A stretch of DNA of 64,000 nt from Agelas oroides (taxonomy: Eukaryota; Porifera; Demospongiae; Agelasida; Agelasidae): NCBI GenBank assembly GCA_949130485.1, contig OX422184.1, positions 22,033,506 to 22,097,505 of the forward strand. The letters run 5' to 3'. This document shows, piece by piece, positions 1-62,994 of this stretch. Within the stretch, counting starts at the first letter, position 1. Each line of letters opens with the position of its first letter. The position numbers and the translations under genes were made by a program. The notes beneath the pieces are model-generated. The model was not told where the DNA came from and did no database searches. It saw only the letters and a list, made by a program, of their open reading frames with translations.

Positions 1-2
1 GC

Positions 3-233
3 CCCACACCCACCGCAAGCCCAGTCCATGCCCCTACCCCTGATTCCACCCAGGACCAGCCACCTCCCCCTCCACTTAGCCCCACTAACAGTCTAACCTC
101 TTCCCATAGCACTAGCCCCCAGCATGAAGAATCCCTATCTGGATCCATCGAACTATTCAGCCCCACCCCCAGCATAATCCAGAACAAGTGGCCATCACCC
201 CCCCCCTCTCCCTCAACGATCCCCACGCATTAG
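3..233 (+). other. Proline/serine-rich open frame at window edge
   Basis: Open from the edge to a TAG at 231-233 (77 codons): PTPTASPVHAPTPDSTQDQP, a Pro/Ser-rich stretch, then ESLSGSIELFSPTPSIIQNK. Composition differs from the AT-rich surroundings. It could be the 3' end of an exon or of a transposon ORF that starts outside the window. I do not recognise it. Confidence 0.3.
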
Positions 234-481
234 GAGAAGACACAATTTACACAACTATGCGAGCCTTGCCTCAACAAATGGGAGCTACGATGTGCGTAGC
301 AGTGTTGGCGCTCCCCCACCCGATACCCCAACTGATTTAAGCGCCCAAGGGATGGGACAGTGCCTTTATGTTGACCTTTGCTTTTATGCTATCATTCCTA
401 CCTTGCTTGCTTACTTTTGGCATGCCATGCACCCTTTTACATTTTTAATGCTTTTTTTTATTTCTTGTATAATGTATATTT

Positions 482-1512
482 CCAGTAGAAAGTGACTTAT
501 CCGAACTTGAGTTATCAGAATCTTACTTATCTGAACCACAAAATTAATGATATTTGGGGCGAGTGTGAGCGAGCCCCACACTAGTGAGTCGAATTGCCGA
601 TTTTTCATATATTATGTGTATATGTGTATATCTGTTGTACGTCATTCTGTAAATGTAGGTTCATACTCTTTTATAACAATCCGCGCGCCGCATGCATGCA
701 TGTACGGACAGAATATTGAAAAGAACGCGTGCACACATACTCGGTCAAGTCGCTATATGAACTGCAACGTGGAGACCTACTTCAGAGTTTTACTTCACAG
801 TTTTACTTCGGAGTTTTACTTCCTTCGGAGTTTTACTTCAGAGTTTGTCGTTACTTGTTTCAAACATGAATATCCAGAGCAGTTCTAGAAGAGCTCTCAA
901 CTCACCGCAGGAGCTAGAAGATCGGCGGGACTAACAGTTGTGTAGAAAGGCTCATGCAGCTTACTGAACGCAGCAGGCGGCAGATATTTTGTTTCATAGG
1001 TGATGGTGGCGACTTCCCTCTACTATTTCTCAAGGAACCCTCAAGTCTTGAAGGACTATGCATGCCAGACCGTGTTCTGACTTAGCCTATAATTGCAACA
1101 ATTGGAATAGCTGTGTGTTGGTAGGACAAATCGCCAAATGGCTCTGTTGTGTGGTAGTACCCCACGAAAAGCTTTGTCTGCAACCATGACAATTTTTCTA
1201 AGCTATTGAGCACTTTTGTAGACAGTAGAGTTACAAACCTCGTTTTAGCTACATGCCATGCTTGAATTGCCTGTGTGCTGTCTGATCCTTACTGGTAAAG
1301 CCTTAGCTACATAACAGTCAATGCTGTAGTGCATTGCTTGCTCACGCTCGCCCCACAATGTTCTACATTCCCCTAGTCATAGATAGTTTGCTGTGCATTA
1401 AAAGGGAAGTAATCTGCTTGTACACAAATAGTATTGCTTTATTTATCAGAATATTTCAGTTATCTGAACACCCCTTAGTCCCGGCATGTTCAGATGAGTG
1501 ACTTTCTACTGT
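482..1512. mobile_element. pogo/Tigger-type MITE interrupted by another element
   Basis: Ends CAGTAGAAAGTGACTTATC (left) and its complement GTGACTTTCTACTG (right). The right ~130 bp matches the intact 205-bp copy at 31379-31584. The middle (about 556-1379) is a different element with GGGGCGAG ends, so this is a nested insertion. Confidence 0.7.
556..1379. mobile_element. GGGGCGAG-type non-autonomous element (nested)
   Basis: Starts GGGGCGAGTGTGAGCGAGCC and ends with GCTCACGCTCGCCCCACAATG plus TTCTACATT. The same ends bound 7906-8545, and a third left end occurs at 8562. No transposase frame was seen. Inserted in the pogo-type MITE at 482-1512. Confidence 0.65.
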
Positions 1513-2089
1513 ACTATATAAATGCTTCTCATATGTTGTGCCATATGTCATCACACACTCAAATTTAATGCATGAGCATCAGCATATAGTCGAAAGCAAA
1601 CAACACGTGGACATATAAAAGCTTGCATTGAACTGTTCCAATTCTACTTCAGACTTCTTGAGAGTTTACTTGTACCTGTATTGAACATGGATACCATGAG
1701 CATATCCACAAGAGCCCCTGAGCCATTGCAATACGAAGAAGACAAGAAATGGCACAGGAATGAACGGGACAGGTCGGGGCAGAGACAACGAAACAAAATG
1801 TACAAGTTTCATGTACATATGGCCAGCTACATTGGACATGGCATTCTTCCAAAACGCTGCAGCAGTCGTAGTGATTGTTGATCTCATATAACATCATGAA
1901 CCGGGTAGGGTGAGGTACTTAAGCATGAGACTAATTGAACATTTCAGCAAACTCCTCCTCCCCACTTTTGCCTCAAAGTAGTGTGCAAAAAGCAGGGCGT
2001 ATTTTCGGGAGCTTATGGTGTATTTGTAAACACATTTTCAAAAAGCTTGGGCAAACCTATATGAATCACACAATCAGTTAATTAATTAA

Positions 2090-2562
2090 CCATTTAAACC
2101 CTATAGTGCACTTTTGGTTACATCACACTACGCTGGTGCTGATTCTGAGTCAGCAGAAAGGGTGGGACAGGGACAAGTGGATGGGGTCACCTGCAGGGTA
2201 CTGTGCACATGGCAGCTGCTAGACTTGGCTATAAAAGAGCCATGGTTAGCACCGAGTGGGCCAATTCCCCACCGTGGTTGCATGGACAGGCATAGAAAAT
2301 GTTATTCTCACCTTTTGGGGGGTTAAATTCTGGTAGGGAAGGTGGCTTGGGCTCTGAGCGGGTATTTGCGAACCAAGAATGCTGACTATTGCATGCTCGT
2401 TAATGAGTGGGCATGGTTAAGGTCACAAGTCTACTTATTAAGGATGGAAGTGCAGTTGGGTTCAGTTTTGGAGTCAGAGCTCAGACAGATATAGTGTGTG
2501 TTAAAGGTATGCATTTGCTAAAATAGTCACAAGTGAAAAAAATTTAGGGTTTAAAGGGTTTT
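2090..2562. mobile_element. TTAA-type (piggyBac-like) MITE, degenerate
   Basis: TTAACCATTTAAACCCTATA at the left and its rough complement TTTAGGGTTTAAAGGGTTTT at the right, set in TTAATTAA sequence. Size and ends resemble the clearer TTAA elements at 12113 and 49010. Confidence 0.45.
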
Positions 2563-3225
2563 AATCAATTAATTAACTTAAACAAGAGCATTTTGTTTGT
2601 ATATAATGTACAGTAGAACCTCTCTAAGGTGGACACCATAGCTACTACTGCTGAATGCTCACTGTATGGAGGTGCCTATTTCAAAAATGGCACTTTCGCT
2701 ACCACACACTTTTGCATTTAGCTGTCTTCCACAAGGCTTTTGTCCAGCTATATGTGCCTTGCTGATCACAAAAGAGGAAGACTGGGCAATTAAATAAGCT
2801 TTTATTGTATTTGTGGTGAATTTATATGGCTTTCGGTTTATATTATGCATCTGTGCCATCCTAGTCTTGTTCCCAGACCCTTGGTACGGTATACACACGT
2901 CTTACTAAGCGTCTGGGAGCGAGACGAGTGTATTGACTCTGATACGTATGTATGCACATTAGTATAGGAATGGTGTTATTCAACTGAAAGTACTGTAGTC
3001 TTAGAATTGCTTGTACATGTACTTCAGGAAAGAAAGGAGCTAAGAAAACACAAGAAAGTGCAAAAAGAAGCTAGTTGAACATATTTAACATCATATGGCT
3101 AACTAAAAATTTGATATTCACAAGTGATCTCTTTCCTTAAATCTGCCAAGAAATGATGTGTAACAACCTAGCAACAACACTGCTGATCCTCACCTTTCTC
3201 TGCTTGTCAACAATATCGTATTCCA

Positions 3226-3870
3226 GATGCACAGAAGCAAACACTCATGCAGCCTGATTAGGAAACTCCAGACTGTGAAGCTTATGAAGCTATGGCAGTT
3301 CAAAGTACGAGTAATGAAGCCATGCTAAGTACTTAACACATTACAAATTGGATTACAAACACAGGAAACCACAAGATGCGTCACTTAAGTTGCGTGATAA
3401 CGAGATTCATAATTCATTTGCAGCAGCTTTTGTGCAGAACTGTCATACTTCAGGCGACATTCCAAATATCTCAGGAACAGTATCCCTGATTGGAACCGGA
3501 CAAGCAGCAAATGATTCTGCATGCATTGGTCTTTTCGGTGATGTATGATATAAGCCAGAGGTCAAAAATTGTGCTCGCAGTAATAATTTTAGATATGCTT
3601 GATGTGTTGCAGGAGCAAGTTTTAGCGTAATTGCCCAAAGTCTTTATAGCAAGAGCTCGAACATATATCGCTGCAACTAGAACATAATCAAGTCAGATAT
3701 TTGGAATGTAGAATTCTTATACAAGCTAAGTTCTAAAGCATGGTTTCTGCTTACTGCTTCTTAAACTATAAACTACATATTCAAACAGAGCTGTCTTAGA
3801 GCTTCAATATTGCTAGGTAGGGTGAGCAAAAACTGCACATCGTATGTTCAGCTCAGAAGGTTGAACCACT
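3226..3870. repeat. Dispersed repeat, pair with 12806-13500
   Basis: Long direct match to 12806-13500 (shared GATTAGGAAACTC, CAAATTGGATTACAAACACA, CAGCAGCTTTTGTGCA). No coding content recognised. Confidence 0.6.
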
Positions 3871-3879
3871 ATTATTGTA

Positions 3880-4990
3880 CAAGACTTAAAAAATGTAGAA
3901 AGATGTATAGGGATGGCATGCCAAAAAGTTTGCAAACGAGGTAGGGATGATATAGTAGTAAAGGTAAATTAACAAAGCCTCATCCCTGCATCGTTTTCAC
4001 ACCAGTTTGCAACTGTAATATAAAAACATGTAGGGATAGGGCTTTGTAAATTTTTAATGTTTTTTAAGTTTTGTTTCTGTACTTTTTTCCTCAGTTACAG
4101 TTAGACCTAAGCCTAAGAAGAATGTTTCTCTTAAGTGTAACCATAACCCTAGAACTTGAAGCAGCATCGACAGTCTAGTAGTGGTTCCAAGTATGTAGTA
4201 TACCAGCTGCAATCCGATGAAGGCCTAACCACTCTCCGTACCAGAATTCGAGCACTTTGTGAATCCAATTGCAGTCCTGGTTTTCGACCAAATGACAACT
4301 GACCAGCACAGAAAACTGTACTGACAGGGCATAAAAGCTGACCGGCGTTACTAAAGCTATATTTTGTAGTGTAGCTAAGCAACTAAATGCAGTGCATTAC
4401 ATATGTGGTGTCCATGAGCCTTCCCCACAACTACGGGAAGAGACCGTGCCGGTCAACGTGTGCAATTTCACGTGTGCACTAGTCTCATTCCCAAACCAAT
4501 GACAGTGGTTATTGGTTTGGGAATGAGACTGGATGTGCACATGCGTACAAGATTAGAAAATGGCGTCCTTCGCAACGGACAGCAGCCGGGCAGTGCTGTG
4601 AACAGCTCTTTTGACCACAGTAAATCTGAAGCTATGAAGTCGCTGAGTGGTTGGGAAGCTGTGCGCTCTGACGAGCATCAATTTCGTGTTAAAATCAAGG
4701 TAAGCAACTGAGCTGTTTTCGATTTATCGTCTTTTGACAAGTGGTCTGAACAAGGAAAGAAGAAAATGGCACTTTTGCTACCGCACACTTTTGCGTTTAG
4801 CTGTCTTCTGCGTGGCTTTTGGACAACTATATGAGTCTTGCTGATGACAAAGGCACTCAAAGAGGAAGCATGGGCACTTAAATACGCATTTGTGGTGAAG
4901 TTATATGGCTTTTGCTTAAGTATTGCATGTATTGGGTGTCGGCGCCATCCCTAAATAGAGAGCCTACCGACTCTCTGATAGTGGGTTATT
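3880..4990 (-). mobile_element. Copy of the 1.5-2.5 kb repeat family, reversed and diverged
   Basis: Reverse complement of much of 21217-22720: the ATGTAGGGATGG/GGCATGCCA block at the left, the CATTCCCAAACCAATGAC hairpin (4480-4532) in the middle, and AGAGAGCCTACCGACTCTCTG at the right. An open stretch 4559-4700 (SGWEAVRSDEHQFRVKIK) ends at a GTAAGC donor-like site, perhaps a relic of an exon carried by the element. Confidence 0.55.
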
Positions 4991-5084
4991 TTCAAAAATT
5001 CAGCCGGTCCCTCAAGCTGCATCCTGGTTACTGACCATAAATCCCTTTGGCTATGATGCAGCATAACATTATACAGAGCGGATG

Positions 5085-5950
5085 GTGTAGTTCTTGCAGA
5101 CTGAATATCTCCATCACTATCTACTGTTACTTGTGAATGATTTTTGCCGAGCAGATTAAGGCGAGGCTACCGATCTTGCATTGTCTGTTCTCTGTTGGCA
5201 GGGTGTGGCTTACATAGTTATGTGCTAACATCTGTCATGCAAAAATCTGTCACACTTAGAAATGCAAACAACATTATGCTTAAGAATACAACAGTGATCA
5301 TGGTTGGGAATGCATTTCCTACTCAGCACTGCAGCAGTGCTAGCAGTCTCATTGTTTCATACCGGCTGTGGTTTCATACCAGTACTGGGATCAGCAGAGC
5401 GGGGCCAGCGTGTGCCAGCACCAGCAAAGCAAAGGCAGAGAACTAGAACAGAGTAGAGCGATAAACAGAAGCTCGAGGAAGTGGATTCCGAGAGGCCAGC
5501 AGAGTGCAGTCAATGCCTTGCAACACTAAGGGAGTGACGACAAAGAGGCTAGTAGAGTGAAGCAAAAAGACAGTGATAGTGAAGTTACTATGCCATGCCA
5601 TTTTGGTGCTAGGCAAAGGTTGCAAAACCTTGCTAATGCCCACAACCCATCAAAAGCACACTCTGATAGGCTTCCTTCATGCCTCGAACTCTGTCCTTGG
5701 TCAATGACCATGGTTATGTATGCACCTTGTGTGCACAAGGTTTACTTCGCACAACCCTACCTTGGTTGCACACTATGGGAAGTAATCAGACCAATAAATG
5801 TTTATACAAGGCATTACATGTACGTACAAGCAAACAAGATTTTTCAGACAAAAGTTTCTGATTCTTAGAGGTGAAGCCCTGCTATTGTAAACACATTCAA
5901 GTGTTGGGAGGTACTTAGTGGTGTACTGTGTTACATACGAATGTTGATGC
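5085..5950. repeat. Dispersed repeat, pair with 13722-14500
   Basis: Shares GACTGAATATCTCCATCA, GAGGCTACCGATCTTGCATT, CCAGTACTGGG and TTCAAGTGTTGGGAGGTACT with 13722-14500; its right part also occurs at 25500-25870 and, more diverged, at 10660-11400. No intact frame. Confidence 0.6.
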
Positions 5951-7905
5951 AAACACTAATTCCACACTACTAGTAGTATGTGGCATACATGGAGGAACAA
6001 TTTTATTGGATGTTGAGAGTGGTGGGTATGGAAATTATGCTGTCATTCTGCAAGACTATGAAATGGATTGTCTCACAGGATTGACGTGATAAGGGTTGGT
6101 ACTTTGACAAAACATTTGTCAGGGTAGTTCAAATTCTGTCATCATCTTCATGAGGTAGCGGTGAACATTAGGGAAGATTTGTTCAGAAAAATTGAAGAAC
6201 CGTACATTCCACAGTTGTATATAGCACTGTGATTTGTTCAATCACTAGCTATAAATCTACTTTCAAATGGTGTATAGTACAATAGGCAGGTATGAAACAC
6301 CCTCTCTACACACCACTATTGAAATGTTAAGTGGGAAGCCAGGACAGCAACTGATATGGGCAGGGTTTAGGAAGTGATCCAAATGGTGCTCTTACATAAA
6401 TACACCACATTCAAATGGTGCTCCAATTAACCAAACGATGCAAAACCATCCACTAAAGGTCTAGCAAGAACCCTGCCTACAGCCATCTGCACTCAATCTT
6501 CAGCATCACTGTATGTTGACCGAAAATGGCCACGTGATCAACCGTTCCAACAGCTATACGCAGCTCGTCGCACAATGTTGTCATCATCCCGATTGTATAG
6601 CCAGCTTCCGTGAAGTAGCATCACTCCATTGTTGCCTGAGCTCCAGTATATTGCTGCAGCTGCTCCTGGGACAGTTTGCTACTGCAATCCACACCTACTG
6701 GCTGATGGGTACTAATATTCATAGGGTTCTTATGCTCGAGGGGGTACTACTATTCAGGAAATTGATAGCAAACACTTTGATAGGTGCTTATATTCATAGG
6801 GTACCTGTAATTGATGGGTACTTACACTCCAGAGTTGACAGTATGTAAAAGCAATATCTTGACATGCCGTTCATTTTCCATATGCTGTAAACTGTCAACA
6901 TTGCTAAAGGCATCTATTGCTTGTTACCTACTCTTTGTTCTTTAGTGAAAGAGTTCGACTTGGAAAGCCAGTGCTGATGAATGGCTCAACTTTTACAGCA
7001 GTCACTGTAACACTATACTACCAAAAATCAAGCATCATATTAACCACAAAGTAGCGGATATCTTCTGTACGCATTGTTATTTCAAAATTGCCAAGAGAGG
7101 TATATACCACCTAATACAGTTGGGAAGGTTGTGATTGAGTCACCATCTTTCATTATCTTCTCCTTATCACCACACAATATCTGGTGAGGCACAAATTGTT
7201 GCTCACTCCTTCATATACACAAAGGCCAGGACCAGGCCTTTCATCGACACAGACTGTCAACTATAGCTCACTTCTGATTTGTTTGATAACTAGCATGGTG
7301 CAGCGCTGTAGAGTAGCTGGCTAGCTACGTAGTATAAGGTTAGTAACGTGTCTTTACATGCAGCAATATCCAACTACCCGAACTACTGAAAACTTCAACT
7401 GAGAAGCTCTCGGACTCACCCCATTTCTGGCTGTAGGCAGCTAGCTCGCATGTCAATAGTTGTAGCTTAAATGGAGGCCAGCAGCAAAGCTAAGCAAGGC
7501 TAACTCAACAATTATAACCATAGAACTACTTGAGCTAGACCCCTCCATGCAAACCTTACAGAACTTTATAAGTAAACGAACAGCAGCTGAATTTTGCAGC
7601 TGCAAAAAGTTTGTGGACACAGGTCATTGTTGACAGTATGATTTGTCTACGCATTTCTGTTCCATGCATGAATAGATGTAAACCATGCCTGCAACTCATG
7701 CAAGTCCCATACAGACTTTGTGTAGCCAAAGTAACCTTTAGCTGTCCATACATGCCTGTTGCATCTATTTAATGAGCATGAAATGAACAGAAACATACCT
7801 TTATCATGCATGGCAAAGAAGGGAGAGTGGTACATGGAAGATGCATAGAATGGTAGACTCATGCATAGAATGGTAGATCCGTGCATGTAATGTACATGTG
7901 TTATT

Positions 7906-19400: not shown

Positions 19401-22400
19401 AAGTAGACATGTCCTAGACTAATATGATGTGTTTACTACACAAAAGAAATACCTACATGTGCGTTGAATGACTAAAAACATAACTTCATCTGTTGTCTTG
19501 TCAATCCCAGTCTAAGACTTAGTGTCATTCTGTGTATAGTGGTTTGATTAAATTCTATGACTGTGTTTACGAAGCTACTTCAAGGATACTGATAGGAGCA
19601 AAAAATGTCTGAGAGCCACAGCAGTAATAGCATTTGTTGAAATGTCTGTGGTCAGTGTGGGTGTGTTCAAGTATGTCACATGTGCCATGTATAGCTATAG
19701 TGAAGTAGTTCAGCTTAGTGAACAGTTACTGTTCATTTTGAATGTGGACATATCATATTTCTTCAAATAGTCACCGCCCTCGAATAGTCACCGCCCTCGA
19801 ATAGTCACCGCCCTCAAATAGTCGCCGCCCTTTAATAGTAGCTAGCTAGCCACACAATCGGAAGCTCTGAACGAAATAAATACGGCCCTCGAATAGTAAC
19901 CGCGGCTACAATACGTGGCACGTGCACATGTGTAAATAGTAGCCGCGACATCTGGTCGAAGAAATATGGTACATGGAACAACTAGCCTTGTTCACAGACC
20001 ATTGTATGCCCAGATATTTTGTTGCTTACAGTACACCCAGATCACCACAGACAATGCAAGTCGCCTTCACTTAGTATCAATAGCCATCACCGATATTCTG
20101 TGGTACATGACTAGCGATGTAGCTGTTTGGCACAATCATTGTGAATATTGTCAAGCCAACATTGAACTAGGGGACGTATACTCAAGACAAATTGAATATT
20201 CAAGTAAACACCTCCTCCCATGTTTTGACTCAAAGTAGTGTACAGAAGGGGAGGGGGCACAATGTCATTGTAGTGTGCACTGTTCATCATCACAAACACA
20301 ATCTAACCATAACACTCCATCTCACCTTTGTCTCCTGCTCCACACTAGCTCCTGCTTGTAGTAGCAGCTCAACAACCAGGGCATGGCCTTCCTGACAGGC
20401 AACATGCAAAGCACCGAACCCATTCTGTGAAAGAGTCAACAATAAAGATCAATGTACATTTATAGTCAACATGTTTAGTGACACAGAGTAGCAAATGATT
20501 AATCAATACTTTACCACTGATCTGTTGCTAGGGCTACACAGGATGGAGCATAACACATAGCTCAAGGGTTAATTATACATGACATGCCTCGCCTGGCTGA
20601 CCAGTACTCTTAAAACATCTGGAGCAGCAACCATGTGAGCCAATTAGAGCTCAGCAACCTTATTAACTGGCAATCTTGTGACCTGCTATTACAAGAACAA
20701 TATAACCCGTTACCCAGGCAACATCTAAGAATGTTACCCATATCTCTCTTGTACAGTGATGTTGCCTAGGTAACAGGTTATATAATAGTTATATCCCTCC
20801 CTGGGGTGTGGTCTTGCACATTGGTGTCGGGCTACGCCTGACACCAATGTGTAAAACGACCACCCCCCAGGGAGGGATATAACTATTACTTAAAATAAGC
20901 TGCAGCTTGACTGGGGGCCAGCAGCAACGACTAATTACATACCTCAACATTTTATAATCAGACAGGTTGAACAACAGTAGTTGCACTTTGCTGCTGACAG
21001 TTTGTGGAGCCATGGTAATTGTTTACAGTATCATTTGTCCATGCATGGGTGGTCCATGCATAAAAAGAACAGAATCACACCTGTATCGTATATGGCCTGG
21101 GAGACTGATAAAGGAACATACATGGACTTGTAGATTCATGCATAGAATGTGCATGAAACGGTAGATTCATGCATGCACATTATTATAATGCATGTACGTA
21201 TTATGCAATATCTTGTCCATATCAGAGAGTCGGTAGACTCTCTATGTAGGGATGGCGCCGACGCGCAATATATGCAATACTTAAGCAAAAGCCGTATAAC
21301 TTCACCACAAATACGCTAAAAGCTTATTTAAGCGCCCAGACGTCCTCTTTGAGTGCCTTTATGATCAACAAGACTCATATAAGTGGCCACAAGCCACGTA
21401 AAAGACAGCTAAACACAAAAGTGTGCGGTAGCAAATGTGCCATTTTTCGTATTCTTCTTTCTTCGTTCAGCCTTCAATCTTTCAACAATGATATCTTGCA
21501 AACAGTTTAAATGCTCACCGTCATCTAAGCACGAACCTGATGCTTATCACAGCGCGGAGCTCTACGACCACTCAGCGTCTTCATAGCTTCAAATTCACCC
21601 TGGCCAACAAAAGCCATTCACAACACTCTGAGGCTGGTGTCCGTTGCTTAGGATGCCATTTTCTAATTTTGTACGCATGCGCACACGAAGTCTCGTTCCC
21701 AGACCAAAGACCACAGTCATTGGTCTGGAAACGAGACTAGTACACAACGCCAGCGGGCAGTACGCATGGCTGGCACGGTCTTTTCCCCTGCGGCATTGTG
21801 CAAGGCTTATGAACACCACGTAGGTAAGGCGCTGCATTCAGCTGTATACTTTTAGCTACACTAAAGATAGCCTACTTACAGCTTTAGTGAACTGTAAAGC
21901 TAGGATGGTCAGTTGTCAGTATGATAGTTTTCTGTGAATGGGTTTCACAATGTTTGGTAGGGAGAGTGGTTGGCCCTTCATCAGGTTCTAGCTGGCTATA
22001 TTACACATAATTATTACATGCCTGGAACCACTACTAAACTGTCAACGGCGTTTCAAGTTCTGGTGTTGTGGTTACACTTTTAGGCTTAAGTCTAACTGTA
22101 ACTGAGATTAACATCAAAAACGTACAGAAACAAGACTTTAAAAACATTAAAAATGTAAAAAGATGTAGTGATGGCATGCCAAAAAGTATGCAAACAAGGT
22201 AGGGATAATGCACGAAAGCAAAGGTGAACATATTGGCAAAGCCCCATCCCTACATCTTTTTCACACTACAGCTGATGCAATGCTGCTAGATCATATTAGC
22301 CTCGTTCCTGAGCTGGCATGTGGGAGAAGGAATGTGGCCTGGGGATGAGGCTAAAACCATGCCATGTACTTTAACGACACTATCATAAGTCTGCAGTCTA

Positions 22401-25400
22401 CTCCAACTCACTGCTTAAGTTGTTGAAGAGGTTCCGTATAACATAATGCTACCAATAGGGTCATATTAGCCTTGTTCCCAGGCCATGTGGGAGGAGGAGG
22501 TGGCCTGAGAACAAGGCTACAGCCATGAACTACCAGTAAAGGTTGTGAACATTTTAAGAAGACCCCCATGCACTGTCTAACTGTAGTGTGAAAAAGATGT
22601 AGGGATGGGGCTTTGCCAATATGTTCACCTTTGCTTTCATGCATCATCCCTACCTTGTTTGCATACTTTTTGGCATGCCATCCCTACATCTCTTTACATT
22701 TTTAATATTTTTAAAGTCTTTATTATTACATGTGGGCAATGTACATAAATGTCACAGTTTTACGGAAATATAGTGGAAACGGCCATGCATGAACAATCAA
22801 CGAACCACATCTCCCTTATAAAAACAGGCATAGATGTTATGCAAAGTCACCCACTGCGCAGGACGTGTTTCGGCCAATACTAGACCTCATCAGCTGCGCT
22901 GGGGTGACCGGGAGATGGGGACTGCCATATCATGCACAGAATGCAGTCAGGTGGCTGGCCTTATTCAAAAATCGATAGAGACTCCGATCCTTGAAAGCAC
23001 TGTCTCTTCGTGCAGCTGTCTTTCGTTCTAAGATCTTACGTAGCGATCGTAATCATTGATCGTCACATGTTATCGATATCGGTGCGTGCGTGTAAACGCA
23101 TGCGTGCACGTGCGAGCATACAGAGGCGTTGGAGGTACCGGAAGTATTAATGGCTAGTAAGGCACAATGCAAACTGTGTGAGGCAAACAGTGCGTGTTTA
23201 GGCTGTGTGTGTGTAAATGTGCTAGGCCAATTTAACTGCATGTTCAGGCTGTGTTAAACAGTAGGTAAGGCAATGCATTCAGTAATAATATTTTTCAGGC
23301 ACCTCCCGTACTTCTGTAAAGTCCTGGGGTAGCGATGCACAAAGGTCTTGTAGGTGCTACAGAGTTTTTGGTAGACGTATCCCTGTCTAAGTAATCTGGT
23401 TGTGAGTAGTTTAGATCTGTAAGCAAAATCTTGGTAATTACAACATATCCTCAAATATCGAACTAACTGTGAAATTACTACTCCGTATGCAGGTTTTGAG
23501 GGTATGTTGCTATCCATGTGTGGAAAATTGACTATTGAAAAGCTGAAGGTATCCCTCTTATCATACAAGTCTGTGCAAAACTTACAGTTCAGGACCTTAA
23601 TGTTAAGATCCAGGTAGGAACAGCTTGCAGAAGCAGTTGATACCAGGCTGTCTTTCTCCTCTCTCGTGTCCTCGGTACGAGGCTAACACCAATCCCTGCT
23701 TTGTTATGCTCCAAGGTGCTAGCTATACACAAGAACATGCCATGCTGGTGTGTGGCCTAGTAAACTCTGACCTGCTATGTAAATGTGGAAGCCTGCCACA
23801 AGATCCTTAGTACAACCATGAGAGCTCTACCTGGTTCTTTATAATACCAACAAGTGATATCCATGCTCAAGCCCAAGTGTATTCTAGATAGTATGTGTCA
23901 CTCTCCACTGGTCACTCTCCACTGGTCACATGCACATCACTAAGTCATACAAGCTTATTATTCGGTCATTGATTGAGGTGAGGCAGAGGTGGGATCTGAT
24001 TAGTGTTGACTACCTGGATCGACAGGACCAGCATGCTAGTGCTGGCCTGTACTGAGATGAAGTTCACACAGGTACCACCTAACTGGTGGCATGATTGTGG
24101 TGAAACAGTGACAAGTGAGGTAAAACAAAGAAGGGGAAGGTGATGAGGGTGGGTGACAATATCTGACTGCCCAGTGAACTGCAGGTGTGAACTTGTGTTC
24201 GCAATGCTTTATCTCGTAATCCTCAGATGATTAAATTATATTGTCTAGCACCTGTCACATGGTACCACACATCCATCCGGATGAGTACCCCAAAATTGAC
24301 ATCTTTAAGTGTGACAGACTTGTACACGCGTATGTACACATGAAAATTGTGAGAAGAGATCCTCCATTCGAAGTCTTGCACTAACGCACTCGGCAATAAT
24401 GCAACAGTTAAAACAGGTACAGTTTTCAACCAAAGCAAACCAAACTATCAATGAGTTAGTTTACACAATATAACGCAACTAATTGACATGACACAAAATT
24501 GCCATCTTTTAATAGCTCTCTCACACGTTCAGCAGTATAGTGCTTCCAACACGCCAAGGCTCTCAAAATGTGTGATGCAAAAATTTATGGGACTGCTACA
24601 TTTGTGTGTATAATTTTAGGACATTGTTTAGGGGTAGCTAGGCATGCATCAAGTAGGAATTTTCTGGAAACCTACTTTGTGACATCTGACTAGATGTTCT
24701 AGGTGTACCTGTCCTAGAGGTAATATTTCATCACCTACACAAAACTGAACTTCCATTAAAAGTACGTAGAGTTGATACACACTTCATAGACACATCAGAT
24801 ATTGATGCCCACCCTTAATGATGGTTCAGTTGATACAATGCATTAGCCTCATTCCCAGCCTCCTCCTAAGCTTTTCAAGTCGCATGACATATGAAAAATA
24901 AGACCGAACAGCTGAGGAGGGAACTGAAAACAAGGCTAACTGTGTGTTAATACAATGGAAATATGTGACTGAATAATGTCCAATTTGCACTCGGGACTTC
25001 CATAATTATAAAATATAGTGACATGTTCAGGGAGGCAATCATCTTCATGGACATACAGTGCTCAAGACGGCTTGTACCTAAATGTGTGGGACAGTATGAG
25101 TTACTGGAATTGTTTGCATATGCTCAAAAACACTGATTGTACCCATTCCATTATCACATGACTACAGATTTTGGTCCATTTTAAACTACTGACATGTAGT
25201 CCACTACTGAAACGGTGGGGCAACTCTCTGCCTGGGGATGCTTTGAGGAGTCCAGCTCTTGGTTTATTCACAATCTCTATATTGTGGCTACACAAATTGA
25301 GGGAGGGGCTTAACAGGTGAGGTTACATACGTACCATAATCTTTTCAAATAACTTGGGGAATGGCCAGAAAACAGATGGAACTATTCAAGTGTAAAGCAC

Positions 25401-28400: not shown

Positions 28401-31400
28401 AGGAAAACTGAAGAACTAAACATTTCACATCACATCTGCAAATCCACAGTGATACACAACAGTAGCTAACTAGCTAGCTCATGAATCCACAGCATTACAT
28501 GTTACAATTATCCGGTACAATTCAAAAGATTCACTCTTTTGGAAAGGGAGCTTGGCAGCTTAGCTTAACTTGGCTAGACAGTATAGCTTTGTAGCTCTGT
28601 ATAGGCAATGAGCTACAGGGTAGCTATTAGTGTGTATATAGCACTGTGAGTCCATGGCACAGCATTACTACAACCGTCTATACATATCCAACTACTGAAC
28701 TACAGGTTGGAACTGCAACTGAGAAGCTTGGACTCACCCGGTCTCTGGCTGTAAGCAGCTAGCCCTCGAGCATGTCAATAGCTGTAACTTGACTAGAGGC
28801 CAGCAGCAAATCCAAACAAGACCACTTGAGCAAGACTCATCTAGAAATGAACAGCAGCTGTACTTTGCAGCTGCTAACAGTTTGTGAAGCCATGGTAATT
28901 GTTTACAGTATCATTTGCCATGCATGAACATTCAATCAATGAACCACATCAGATTCTGCCTTATAAAACATGCCTGGATGTTATGCAAAGTCACCCACTG
29001 CACAGGACGCGTTTCGGCCAATACCAGGTCATCAGCTATTGACATGCGCTGGGGTGACCGGGAGATGGGGACTGCCATATCATGCACAGAATGCAGTCAG
29101 CATGGCTGTCCCATGCATGAAAACAACAGAACCAAGTCTGTATCATGCATGGTCTGGAAGGGAGACGGATGTATGGAACATATGTGGACTTGTAGACTCA
29201 TGCATTACAATGGGTAGATCTGTGCGTGTATCATACGTGCATTATGCACAATACATGCACAGATCTACAATTCCATGAACATGTGCAGTCTAACATTAAC
29301 CCAATGGATATAGAATTACCCACAGAAGAATGTACGAACATTTTTCCATAGACTACATGCACGGATCTACCATATGCATAGCCCAATGGATATGAAATTA
29401 CTCACAGATGAACGTACAAACATTTCTTTCCATAGACTACATGTAGTGTAATAATGATTAATGTTCACTCCCAGGCCAAGTTATGAACATGTCATGCACC
29501 ATGCCTGCTTGAGGACACTTCCAAGGTGCTAATTATACACAAGAACAAGCCATGATGTGGCCTTGACCCTTAGTAACCTAGTAACCATGAGTGCTTTTCC
29601 AGCTCTTTATTATACCACTGTGCGATATCCACCCTAGTATTATGCTCAAGCCTATTCCACCAAGGTCTACCCAAGATGTTATGCATCACTCTTCTCTGGT
29701 CAACTACTATGCAGTGTCATGGGAGTTTATTATTTGGTCATTGATCGAGGTCAGAGCAGCATACCCACAGGTCTTGCAAGTACTGACTCTCTGGATCAAC
29801 AGGACCAGGATGCTGGAGCTGGATTGTATTGAGCTGTTTGGGATAAGGCCACACAAGGGTACTACCTAACTGGTGGTAGAGTAAGTTAGCAATCATCAGA
29901 CAGAGGATACAACTGGACACTCACACGTGCGTGTATACCACGTGAAGGTAGTAAAGGTACACAGTACCGTGCATACTAAAATGATGCCCACACATTGCAT
30001 CCTGTTCACACAAGAAGCAGTAAAATGACTGTCCAAAAACAAATAAATCCTCGGATAAATGTATGTATACCACTTCTCTGGAAAGCACTAGCTTTAACTA
30101 ATCTTATTATAATCAACCGATTTATAATACTGAAATTGCATTTGACATCATTGCTGCCACAATTTCCTCATATAAATATTGAAGCAATTTCGAGGATAGA
30201 TCTCAGTTGGCATCAATTAGAAATCCTCTGGAACCTACTTTATGACATTTGACTACGTAAACATGTACATGTGATGGACAATTTCTATGTGGGACTGCCA
30301 CATATAGATGCATGCACATGTATGTCAACACGCAGTAGACATACACAACATATCAGTGTACAGTGGAACCCAGCTATTCCACACCTCTGAAATGTGCATA
30401 TCTCATTTTTATGGACTTTTTGCTCACATGAATTGCACTTCTATTACAGCCGTACATTATACCCATGAAATGTGGACACCCCACTATTCCATAAAACGGA
30501 CGGATTCCAGGTCCTACAATTACTTGGCCTGTACAAAACTCAACTTGATAATGTGTACCCTCATGTGCCTCTCACGCAAATTGTCTGCCACCGCTGTTCA
30601 ATTCAACTATTGGACATTATAATACTTATAGTGTCTGGTTAGCCTTCTTTTCTACAGCAAGAGAGAGTTCTGAAACATGGCTTCATAGCACTCAATGGCA
30701 TGAGTATGCATTACTATGCATACCAGAAATATAATAGAAGCTTGCGAAATACATATGTGGCAGTCCCGAATAGAATTCGAATATTATTCCATCGCGTATT
30801 TCGAGCGTATCACCGAGTTTGACACGCTGTAGCGCTAAACTTCCGGTAGGGGCGGGGCTCATACACACTTCATAGACGTATCAGATATTCATGCATTTAC
30901 ATAGCGCATATGAGCACCGCCCTTAGCGGAAGTTCAGCGCTATAGCGCGTCAAACTCGGTGATGTGCTCGAAATACGCAACGGAATAATATTCGATTTCT
31001 ATTCGGGACTGCCACATATGTCCCCATATTCTGGACAGGCAGCAATAGGGTGTCTCTACTGTAACACCATTTGTAAATTAAATCTTAACACAATTTGCAT
31101 TTGATAATTACACAAGCGTACAACACGAAAGTGCAAGGCCCTGTATGTGCCCACACTAGTTTTCTGCAATTTACTACCACTGTTTTGCATTATGGAGCTT
31201 ACATTATTTCCTCCCCACAGGAAGTCAAAAGAAGCATAATAAGCTCAGTTTACATTGTAAGGCCACAGCACAGCTTGTATCCTATGAGCAACTTGCTCAA
31301 GAAGCCTATATTGTAAGTCTACAACACAACTCATATCCTACAAAGTAATCAAACATTCTACATTTGTAAGTATATATACAGTATAGGAAGTCACTTATCC

Positions 31401-34400
31401 GAACTTCAGTTATCCAAACTTTCACTTATCCAAACTCAATAAGATATTCATAGATATTTTGCTGTGCATTAAATGGAAAGTGTTCTGCTTTGTATACGAA
31501 TACTATTGTTTCACTTATCTGAACATTTCAGTTATCTGAACAACCCTTGGTCCCAGCATGTTCGGATAAGTGACTTCCTACTGTATGCAGTTTGAGTCCT
31601 CAAGCAACTTGCTCAATGAGTTTATTAATCATCTCAACCACTGTGGACACCTACTTTTTCTGAAACATTGAGCCAACAGTCATGGTTGATTAGAGTACTT
31701 GAGTGCCTTGAATTTACAATCACCTTGTCTCCAAAGTAAAGTAGGCATACTTATCAGCCATATTAAGTATAGCTAAATACACAGTATAATGCAATGGTTG
31801 AAATGATACAAATGCTTCTCTTGTGTGTGTCGGGGTATAAAGGCTTAAAAGGTCTCATGAGGCACAAATTCCTGCTCATTCACTATAGGCACACACACAT
31901 AGTCTGCATCATTGACACAGTTTGTTGACTGTAGCTACTGCCCTCACCTCTGTCTGTACATCAGGGTTAGCCCCACTGGCTAGAAGAAGTTCCACAACGC
32001 AAGAGTGGCCATGCAAGCTGGCAGTCAAGAGTGGTGCTTGACCAAACTAGAGTGAATGTATGAACAATCAATGAACCACATCTCCCTGAAAAAAGGCAGG
32101 CCTACATTTAGGCATAAGTACTAAGTTATGAAAGCCAACAATGCAAAGAGACTTGCATTATAGGAAAGGGACCACTACACCAAGTTGTAGTATACTGGAA
32201 GTGCACATACAACATCATCTCACCTGGTCCTGATAGTTCACATCAGCTCCTCTCTTCAATAGTTGGGTAACAATCTTGTCATGTCCTTTCTTGCTTGTAA
32301 TGTACAATGGTGTCCAGTTTCTCTGTTGATATATACAAGAACAAATAAAATACAAACTGGGTCACAATTCATGATATGCATCACCACAGCATTTACTATA
32401 AAGTTCTCTCTAAAATGCTCAAAGCATCTTGCCTCACGTTGGAAGTAAATGAATTTAGATGTTATGAGGCGAAAATAGAGGAAACCGAAAAAAGCCGGCA
32501 GTTGCCGGGAGTCGAACCCAGGACACCTCTGGCTTGAGCCGCCAGTGCTCTGCCACTGAGCCACAACAACCAGACAACCACCAACCCTCACAATCCTCTA
32601 TATGTACTGCACAAGTGGTACTGAATGCCTCAGTCGCACACCTGGCAGCCACTTGTATGTGCCGTCAGAACTCTTTTAGGGGTCGACCGGAAAATTCTCT
32701 CCATTCCAGATGGAGAGAATTTTCCGGTCGACCGGTCGGATTGTGAGGTCCATTCCAGATGGAGAGAATTTTCCGGTCGACCGGTTGGATTGTGAGGGCT
32801 GGTGGCTCAGTGGCAGAGTACTGGCGGCTCAAGCCAGAGGTGTCCTGGGTTCGACTGCCGGCTTTTTTCGCTTTCCTCTATTTTCATCTCATAACATCTT
32901 TTCTCTAGTAAAGGTGAAAATAATTCCCAATTTAATGAAAGCATCAAAAGTACATACAATTAACATTAACGGTTGTGTAACTAGTTGCCAGCCCTCACAA
33001 TCATCTACCGTATTGTCCCGGGCAAGTGCCCATTTCCGTGCAAGCGCCTACCCCCCAATTTTGACAGTTTTGTCGTTTTTTGAGATCCTCCGTGTAACTG
33101 CCCACCATGCAAAATTGTTGCATAATAAATCAAAAGTAGGTTCGCTGAGCTCACATACGTAGCTGTGATCATTCTAATGTGCTTCAGGCACCACGACATC
33201 TGGCATCAAAGTTTTGCACACACCCGTACGTAGCCTCGTTCATCGCGTTCTTCGATTGCGGCATGAACTTCACGTACTGCAAGCGACAAATGCTGAGGAA
33301 GTTTGGCAACAAGGCTGTGATTTGGTCCGCTTTCTAGCACAATACAGCGGACCTACTTTCGATAATTAGACCCAGAGGAGGTCGGACATGGTTGACCTTT
33401 TCTAATTAAAACAACTGAGGTCGTCACTAATAGATCTTGGCTATTGCAAGGTAGAAAGTTTTTCTGTTAATGGACTCAGCCTTGAATCTTGATTTGAAAA
33501 CTGGGGCACCCCTCAGTAAAAGTCGAGAGAGGTAGTCTGTTGAGATACGAAAATCAATTAGTGATGATCTCAGCCAGTAAAGTTCCGACCTCCTCTGAAT
33601 TGGACCATTCAAGCACCTCCTCCATGTAACCGTCCACCCTCAATTTTTGGTGCTTGAGCTGCGAGCGTCCATGGGCACTTGCCCGACTCCACACAAACAA
33701 GTACTTACGGTATCTTTGATGTCAACATCAATGCCAGCTGCTAGAAATCTGTGCACCACCTCCAGGTTACCCTCCTCACAAGCCTGGAACAGTTGCTCTG
33801 GGTCCTGGTGAAAACAACACAAGGAAACAACAAAATCAAGGAGAGGAAGGTTTGTACTGTTATAGGCCATCACACATACCATTATTTATTATTATCTTTC
33901 CTCCACAATAATCTGCTCATATTATGTCAAATCAGTTGGGCAGATGGGAGTATTGCTCAAACTTTTACCTATAGAACTGTGGTTTCTGCTCAGTGAGGCT
34001 GACAAATCAAAAGACGTTTGAGCACCATTCCTTGAATTGACCAGAATGATCAAAAGTGACGGAACACAGCTCAATCTACGAGCAGAATTAAAACCCTCTA
34101 ATTTTGCTACATTTTGAGTAGAAGACTGTTTGAGGATGTATATGCTAGCTATGGCATGCATAGATAAGTGAAAACGCCGGTATGATTCATATGTACTCAA
34201 AACCAAGACTCCCTCTGGAAACAGCTACATCCGCCAAATAACACTGTTTATATCTACAAAATTTGTAGAACATTCAAAGTAAACTTACTGCTGTGTCTTC
34301 CTCAGTGACATCCTCATAGATGCATTCACCCTCCACTGTCACCTTTAAAATACAATGCTGCTGAAAGAATTCGGTGTCAATTTTTGCTCTTTCGATAAGT

Positions 34401-38660: not shown

Positions 38661-62994
<24,334 letters not shown>

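Follow-up and report, generated by a model that had tools for sequence, protein, structure and literature searches.

A hammerhead motif at the 3' end of a probable Naiad-type Penelope-like retroelement in the sponge Agelas oroides

A reverse transcriptase (RT) combined with a GIY-YIG endonuclease is the mark of Penelope-like elements (PLEs) (PMC11167929; PMC12910113). Canonical PLEs and Terminons carry minimal hammerhead ribozymes. Like the motif that we describe here, these are of type I, are open at stem I, and have almost no stem III, and, again as here, they are found in tandem units, for which dimeric cleavage was proposed (PMC7229834, PMC7761336, and PMC6155905). The role of the hammerhead in PLEs was described as unknown (PMC7761336). 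In PAc, a PLE from Anolis, the ribozyme lies at the start of the open reading frame, whereas in our element it lies in the 3' untranslated region (UTR) (PMC11167929). Metazoan retrozymes also have type I hammerheads in tandem units, but they are non-autonomous, with RNAs of about 170–400 nt, while our unit has 3557 nt and encodes both an RT and an endonuclease (PMC7229834). Because this unit is coding, instead of being a short non-coding tandem repeat, we rejected the idea that it is a retrozyme.

Unlike canonical PLEs and Terminons, the element that hosts our motif has permuted domains. A permuted domain order was reportedly described by Craig et al. in 2021, and its animal members are said to have been named Naiads. 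Naiads reportedly have a CxC linker, favor microsatellite targets, form tandem copies, and are truncated at the 5' end (Craig et al. 2021). To our knowledge, this clade, with its N-terminal endonuclease, was reported by Craig et al. in 2021 to be without canonical hammerhead motifs. If so, then the element described here is a new variant. Its interest is in the combination of a hammerhead with the permuted domain architecture. Within a limited literature collection, we found no paper that links Naiad elements with a hammerhead or with GIY-YIG.

The motif and its host copy in the window

The window is the whole stretch of DNA that we analyzed (64 kb). On its minus strand, 3' of a fragment of an RT, lies a hammerhead motif of type I, which comprises stem I, stem II, and a short stem III strand, ACACGU (22845..22909, read from 22909 to 22845; sequence, Rfam, fold, and scan). 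Our analysis confirmed that this hammerhead-like motif is real. The core (CTGATGAG...CGAAAC...GTC, plus stems I and II) is complete, as the first-pass annotation had claimed: CTGATGA lies at 22893-22887, GAAA at 22871-22868, and the GUC cleavage triplet at 22864-22862, all on the minus strand. Given the known geometry of hammerheads, the cut is predicted to fall between 22862 and 22861. The invariant core of type I hammerheads (CUGANGA, GAAA, and NUH) is present together with stems I and II. The 4-bp stem II and the two-part stem I of that annotation are there as well: stem II is GGUC/GGCC, with one U-G pair, and stem I has an inner part, GCGCAG/CUGCGC, and an outer part, GGUCACCC/GGGUGACU. 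Along the minus strand, the order is GGUCACCC, GCGCAG, CUGAUGA, GGUC-loop-GGCC, GAAA, ACACGU, GUC, CUGCGC, GGGUGACU.

In the computed fold of the window copy, stems I and II are formed, with a z score of -2.18 (3 of 200 shuffled sequences were equally stable). In the minimum-energy fold, GAUG of the core is also paired with CGUC, whereas the core is open in the centroid. At the gathering threshold, Rfam reported no hammerhead in the window, only a tRNA. The covariance search that the first-pass annotation had put forward as a check did give a hammerhead model when it was relaxed: the best match was to RF02275 (Hammerhead_HH9), which aligned at full length with 21.8 bits (E = 0.0088) for the window copy and 23.2 bits for another copy of the element, versus a cutoff of 52. 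Because these scores are below the cutoff, the motif, though real, is outside the Rfam hammerhead family by the family's own rule.

This shortfall is the one point in favor of a hammerhead-like sequence that arose by chance beside an unrelated RT fragment. However, we scanned both strands for the core together with the A-U closing pair, a stem II of 4 paired bases, and a stem I of 5 or more; these requirements were chosen after the motif had been seen. The scan found a single site in the 64-kb window and none in 60 first-order Markov randomised windows. Furthermore, the motif and the RT fragment are parts of one repeated unit. On both grounds we rejected a chance motif, which seems to us barely conceivable.

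The ribozyme and the RT fragment together make up the 3' end, at about 23625-22786, of one 5'-truncated copy of a retroelement. By blastn, the copy at 22786..23625 (minus strand) corresponds to positions 2740-3557 of the 3557-nt unit, with 89.7% identity over 842 columns. The RT fragment is the C-terminal end of the RT frame and is open to its natural stop (23254..23625, minus strand; open reading frame plus match to the element's frame). As annotated at first, it is on the minus strand; it sits in an open frame at 23254-23682, with DNA similarity to the element starting at 23625, and it has 89% amino acid identity to the last 129 residues that the element's frame encodes. Pfam alone gave no match in the 142-amino-acid frame of the fragment. 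The coding part of the copy differs from the element at 12 of 369 bases; these are 4 synonymous and 8 non-synonymous substitutions, with a dN/dS ratio of 0.53, which are too few to judge. The stop codon is about 360 nt before CTGATGA, in agreement with the roughly 350 nt annotated between the RT fragment and the hammerhead. The motif belongs to the 3' UTR of the element. From the predicted cut to the common 3' insertion end there is a tail at 22786..22861 (minus strand), which is 75 nt in the reference unit. The window ribozyme is a slightly decayed end-piece of a young, multi-copy retroelement, which combines an RNA motif of the self-cleaving type with an unusual domain order in its enzyme.

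Similarity to the element revealed two more 3'-end copies in the window, both short and on the minus strand. The copy at 28933..29108 keeps CTGATGA, CGAAAC, and GTC, but small indels disrupt the inner strand of its stem I and delete two Gs from stem II; Rfam gave no hammerhead match at 28933-29108. The copy at 32057..32119 begins after the ribozyme, so that only the tail is left. Near it, at 32497-32570 (minus strand), is the tRNA found by Rfam, which ARAGORN identifies as tRNA-Glu (CTC). The window locus itself has a duplicate (L005) at a distance of 0.56 Mb, with 3 kb in common at 97.8% identity. Just downstream of the 3' end of the main copy is a 140-nt inverted repeat, 22132-22271 / 22581-22720, whose arms are 96% complementary and 309 nt apart; it looks like a foldback or MITE-type repeat. 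Elsewhere in the window, an open frame at 43441-44133 (plus strand) has a weak match to the WW domain (23.2 bits, cutoff 26.9).

The element across the genome and its encoded protein

With 76 nt around the ribozyme as the query, we searched the genome (259.3 Mb in 141 contigs). There were 1367 first-look candidates, which is not a copy number, and the 40 places that were scored all match the query at 96–100% identity. We compared 30 loci, which were chosen via ribozyme similarity and include the window copy as well as some mutual duplicates. In all 30 the match reaches the common 3' end at unit position 3554-3557, which is near position 22786 of the window, and the 5' starts vary. Copies in ten 9.9-kb loci are 97.7–99.8% identical to one copy that we took as the reference. 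Three of these ten loci have the complete unit, about 3557 nt long, with a frame of 1012 codons (the first Met is at residue 21); the remaining seven have truncation points ranging from unit position 413 to 2504. Among 11 units that we compared, five (two of which are from one tandem locus) differ pairwise by 0–2 bases over 1.05–2.86 kb; the other six differ more, by up to 32 bases. Such near-identical units suggest that the family moved recently. Unlike the window copy, the family looks recent.

In the 1012-codon frame, a GIY-YIG domain (residues 148-237) scores 24.7 bits against a cutoff of 22.6. RVT_1 matches residues 652-862 with 24.4 bits (E = 2.7e-05), below the curated cutoff of 29.6, and the frame contains YIDD. 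Between the domains, at residues 446-451, we picked out by eye CTTCKC, that is, a CxC linker motif (CKC at 449-451). The element has what is expected of a PLE: an RT and a GIY-YIG endonuclease in one frame, tandem or partial-tandem copies (pseudo-LTRs), and 5' truncation. Because GIY-YIG comes before the RT, the architecture is the permuted, Naiad-type one and not that of canonical Penelope; an endonuclease N-terminal to the RT is expected of the Naiad type. The link to PLEs made in the first-pass annotation holds in that the RT, GIY-YIG, and the hammerhead belong to the same element, but it needs amending because the endonuclease is N-terminal. Naiad-type PLEs are alike in having an N-terminal GIY-YIG, a C-rich linker, and then the RT, and in their tandems, 5' truncation, and TG/CA-rich targets; they differ in that they reportedly have no canonical hammerheads, while a hammerhead is part of the present element.

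We found no relative of the protein in viral_contigs or genome_contigs, and no match to a 27-nt ribozyme pattern in viral_contigs. A sequence search of the PDB gave four matches with E above 0.6; each was to a short part of a ribosomal protein, and we took them to be due to chance.

The element may also have a preference for target sites. We hand-picked 17 copies with a clear 5' end, and in 10 of these, TGCA, GCAT, or ATGC lies within 8 nt of the 5' junction, versus 7% of background positions (the motif was chosen after the junctions had been seen, and two of the copies share one site of a repeated flank). Two loci, L033 and L038, have differing 5' truncations at the same site of a flank that is repeated in the genome (91% identity over 648 nt), which points to site preference. 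Upstream of the insertion in L033, an open frame of 2111 codons, with no stops or unknown residues, runs off the end of the locus (1-6333, minus strand).

Stem III and a possible dimer

The core is intact in all 30 loci, but since the sample was drawn by ribozyme similarity, this proves no selection. As the stem III strand, 22 of the 30 have ACGCGU, seven (including the window copy) have ACACGU, and one has ACATGU. ACGCGU is a palindrome, so two copies can pair over six bases; the ACACGU of the window copy pairs poorly. Minimal PLE hammerheads were similarly described as being without helix III, with dimeric cleavage proposed (PMC7761336). When we compared the computed energy of a double hammerhead with that of two hammerhead monomers, the difference was -7.7 kcal/mol for the majority sequence and +2.5 kcal/mol for the window copy. 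Competing folds compute as more stable than the active one, which counts against it. The majority monomer has an alternative fold that pairs core bases, at -32.5 kcal/mol versus -30.1 for the hammerhead form. The best two-strand fold is at -70.8 kcal/mol versus -67.9 for the double hammerhead with the majority sequence, and at -66.7 versus -52.3 with the window copy.

The ribozyme might instead work as a monomer, by contacts between a bulge in stem I and loop II, as in canonical animal type I hammerheads. Stem I does have an internal bulge, loop II has 7 nt, and the closest Rfam model, HH9, also has a two-part stem I. However, stem III of the monomer is limited to one possible A-U pair, and we recognised no loop-loop motif by eye. 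A monomeric ribozyme is unlikely, in our estimation.

The window ribozyme differs from the majority sequence at three bases, and one of these differences breaks the palindrome. This change, from G to A, affects a CpG, which is what decay by methylation would produce. We rejected the stem III variants as evidence of covariation, as both ACACGT and ACATGT fit CpG decay of ACGCGT. The first-pass annotation had also suggested that the ribozyme may be still active. This is weakened by the loss from the window copy of the palindrome that is found in 22 of the 30 loci, even though the family looks recent; on the sequence, it is probably too hopeful for this copy.

Using a gapped pattern that leaves out the spacing of the main family, we also noticed a second family of hammerheads. 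The pattern had seven matches, and a reversed control had one. By eye, five of the seven look like deletion variants of the main family, and the other two (C10:6292959-6292991 and C12:2933640-2933672) are the second family, with GGCC/GGCC as stem II and either ACCGCGGT, which is a palindrome, or ACCGTGGT as the stem III strand.

Tandem units, insertion ends, and the proposed role of the ribozyme

The predicted cut is after unit position 3482. Between it and the 3' insertion end there are 75 nt, and by subtraction the stop codon is about 370 nt before it. We looked for unit-to-unit junctions, allowing up to 2 mismatches, and found eight places (six exact, one with 1 mismatch, and one with 2); controls gave none. 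In five of the eight junction loci, the upstream unit carries the ribozyme stretch. It has the majority sequence in L043, L045, and L046, one change in L041, and several in L047, where the inner part of stem I has a mismatch. The other three junction copies lack an upstream ribozyme and start at least 18 nt past the cut. In tandem copies, the motif thus lies upstream of the next frame, and in a tandem RNA about 207 nt would separate the predicted cut site from the first Met codon that follows. The pseudo-LTR position, which the first-pass annotation had named as known for hammerheads of PLEs, is seen in these tandem copies elsewhere and not in the window copy, a 5'-truncated insertion whose 3' UTR holds the ribozyme.

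We think it probable that the window contains a 5'-truncated copy, reduced to its 3' end, of a recently active, Naiad-type PLE with a hammerhead, and, taken jointly with this, that the ribozyme acts as follows. In transcripts of tandem units, two hammerheads would pair via the palindrome ACGCGU, form a dimeric stem III, and cut at GUC. Cleavage would yield RNA of unit length, beginning about 207 nt ahead of the first Met codon. The element's protein would nick TG/CA-rich DNA (often TGCAT) and would start reverse transcription just downstream of the ribozyme.

Several observations do not fit easily with cleavage. No insertion end among the copies in hand is exactly at the predicted cut. We rejected a short copy in L044 as a footprint of cleavage, since its start precedes the cut by about 6 nt. 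Where the ribozyme is retained (five of the eight junction copies), the template was either uncut there or circular, unless the tandem was formed in two steps. We looked for private changes shared between tandem units, which bear on a circular versus a linear template, but this was uninformative because the youngest copies are nearly identical. In PAc, mutating the hammerhead left insertion in vitro unaffected, cleavage required the protein, and RNA-seq showed no ends at the cut (PMC11167929). The results for PAc, the lack of an insertion end at the cut, and the junctions that retain the ribozyme count against a working ribozyme.

So we also considered that the motif might be a structural RNA of the 3' UTR, such as a binding site for the element's own protein or a start signal for the RT, which has a hammerhead-like fold whose cleavage no longer matters. 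In PAc, the cut is 26 nt into the open reading frame and the RT starts 111–118 nt into it (PMC11167929). By subtraction, 85–92 nt separate the PAc cut from the RT starts; with the 75 nt between our predicted cut and the insertion end, the distance in the two elements is some 75–92 nt. That spacing, the independence of PAc insertion from cleavage (PMC11167929), and the retained ribozyme at five of eight junctions all agree with a structural role beside the RT start, which is a fair rival. On the other hand, a mere stem-loop would not need the core that is intact in 30 of 30 loci (a sample drawn by ribozyme similarity). On balance, we consider a purely structural role somewhat unlikely and prefer a Naiad-type PLE whose hammerhead cuts as a dimer.

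In a canonical PLE, too, the ribozyme lies a short way upstream of the insertion end, and this resemblance suggests that a link between the ribozyme and the initiation of reverse transcription is shared. It is about as likely as not that Naiad-type PLEs have hammerheads whose stem III is dimeric and palindromic, which may be ancestral to the endonuclease-bearing PLEs or may have been regained, and that their placement reflects such a link. This would correct the reported lack of such ribozymes in the Naiad clade. And because this appears to be a young, multi-copy family with near-identical insertions and a precisely placed ribozyme, the role of the hammerhead could be tested using insertion ends and RNA from the host.
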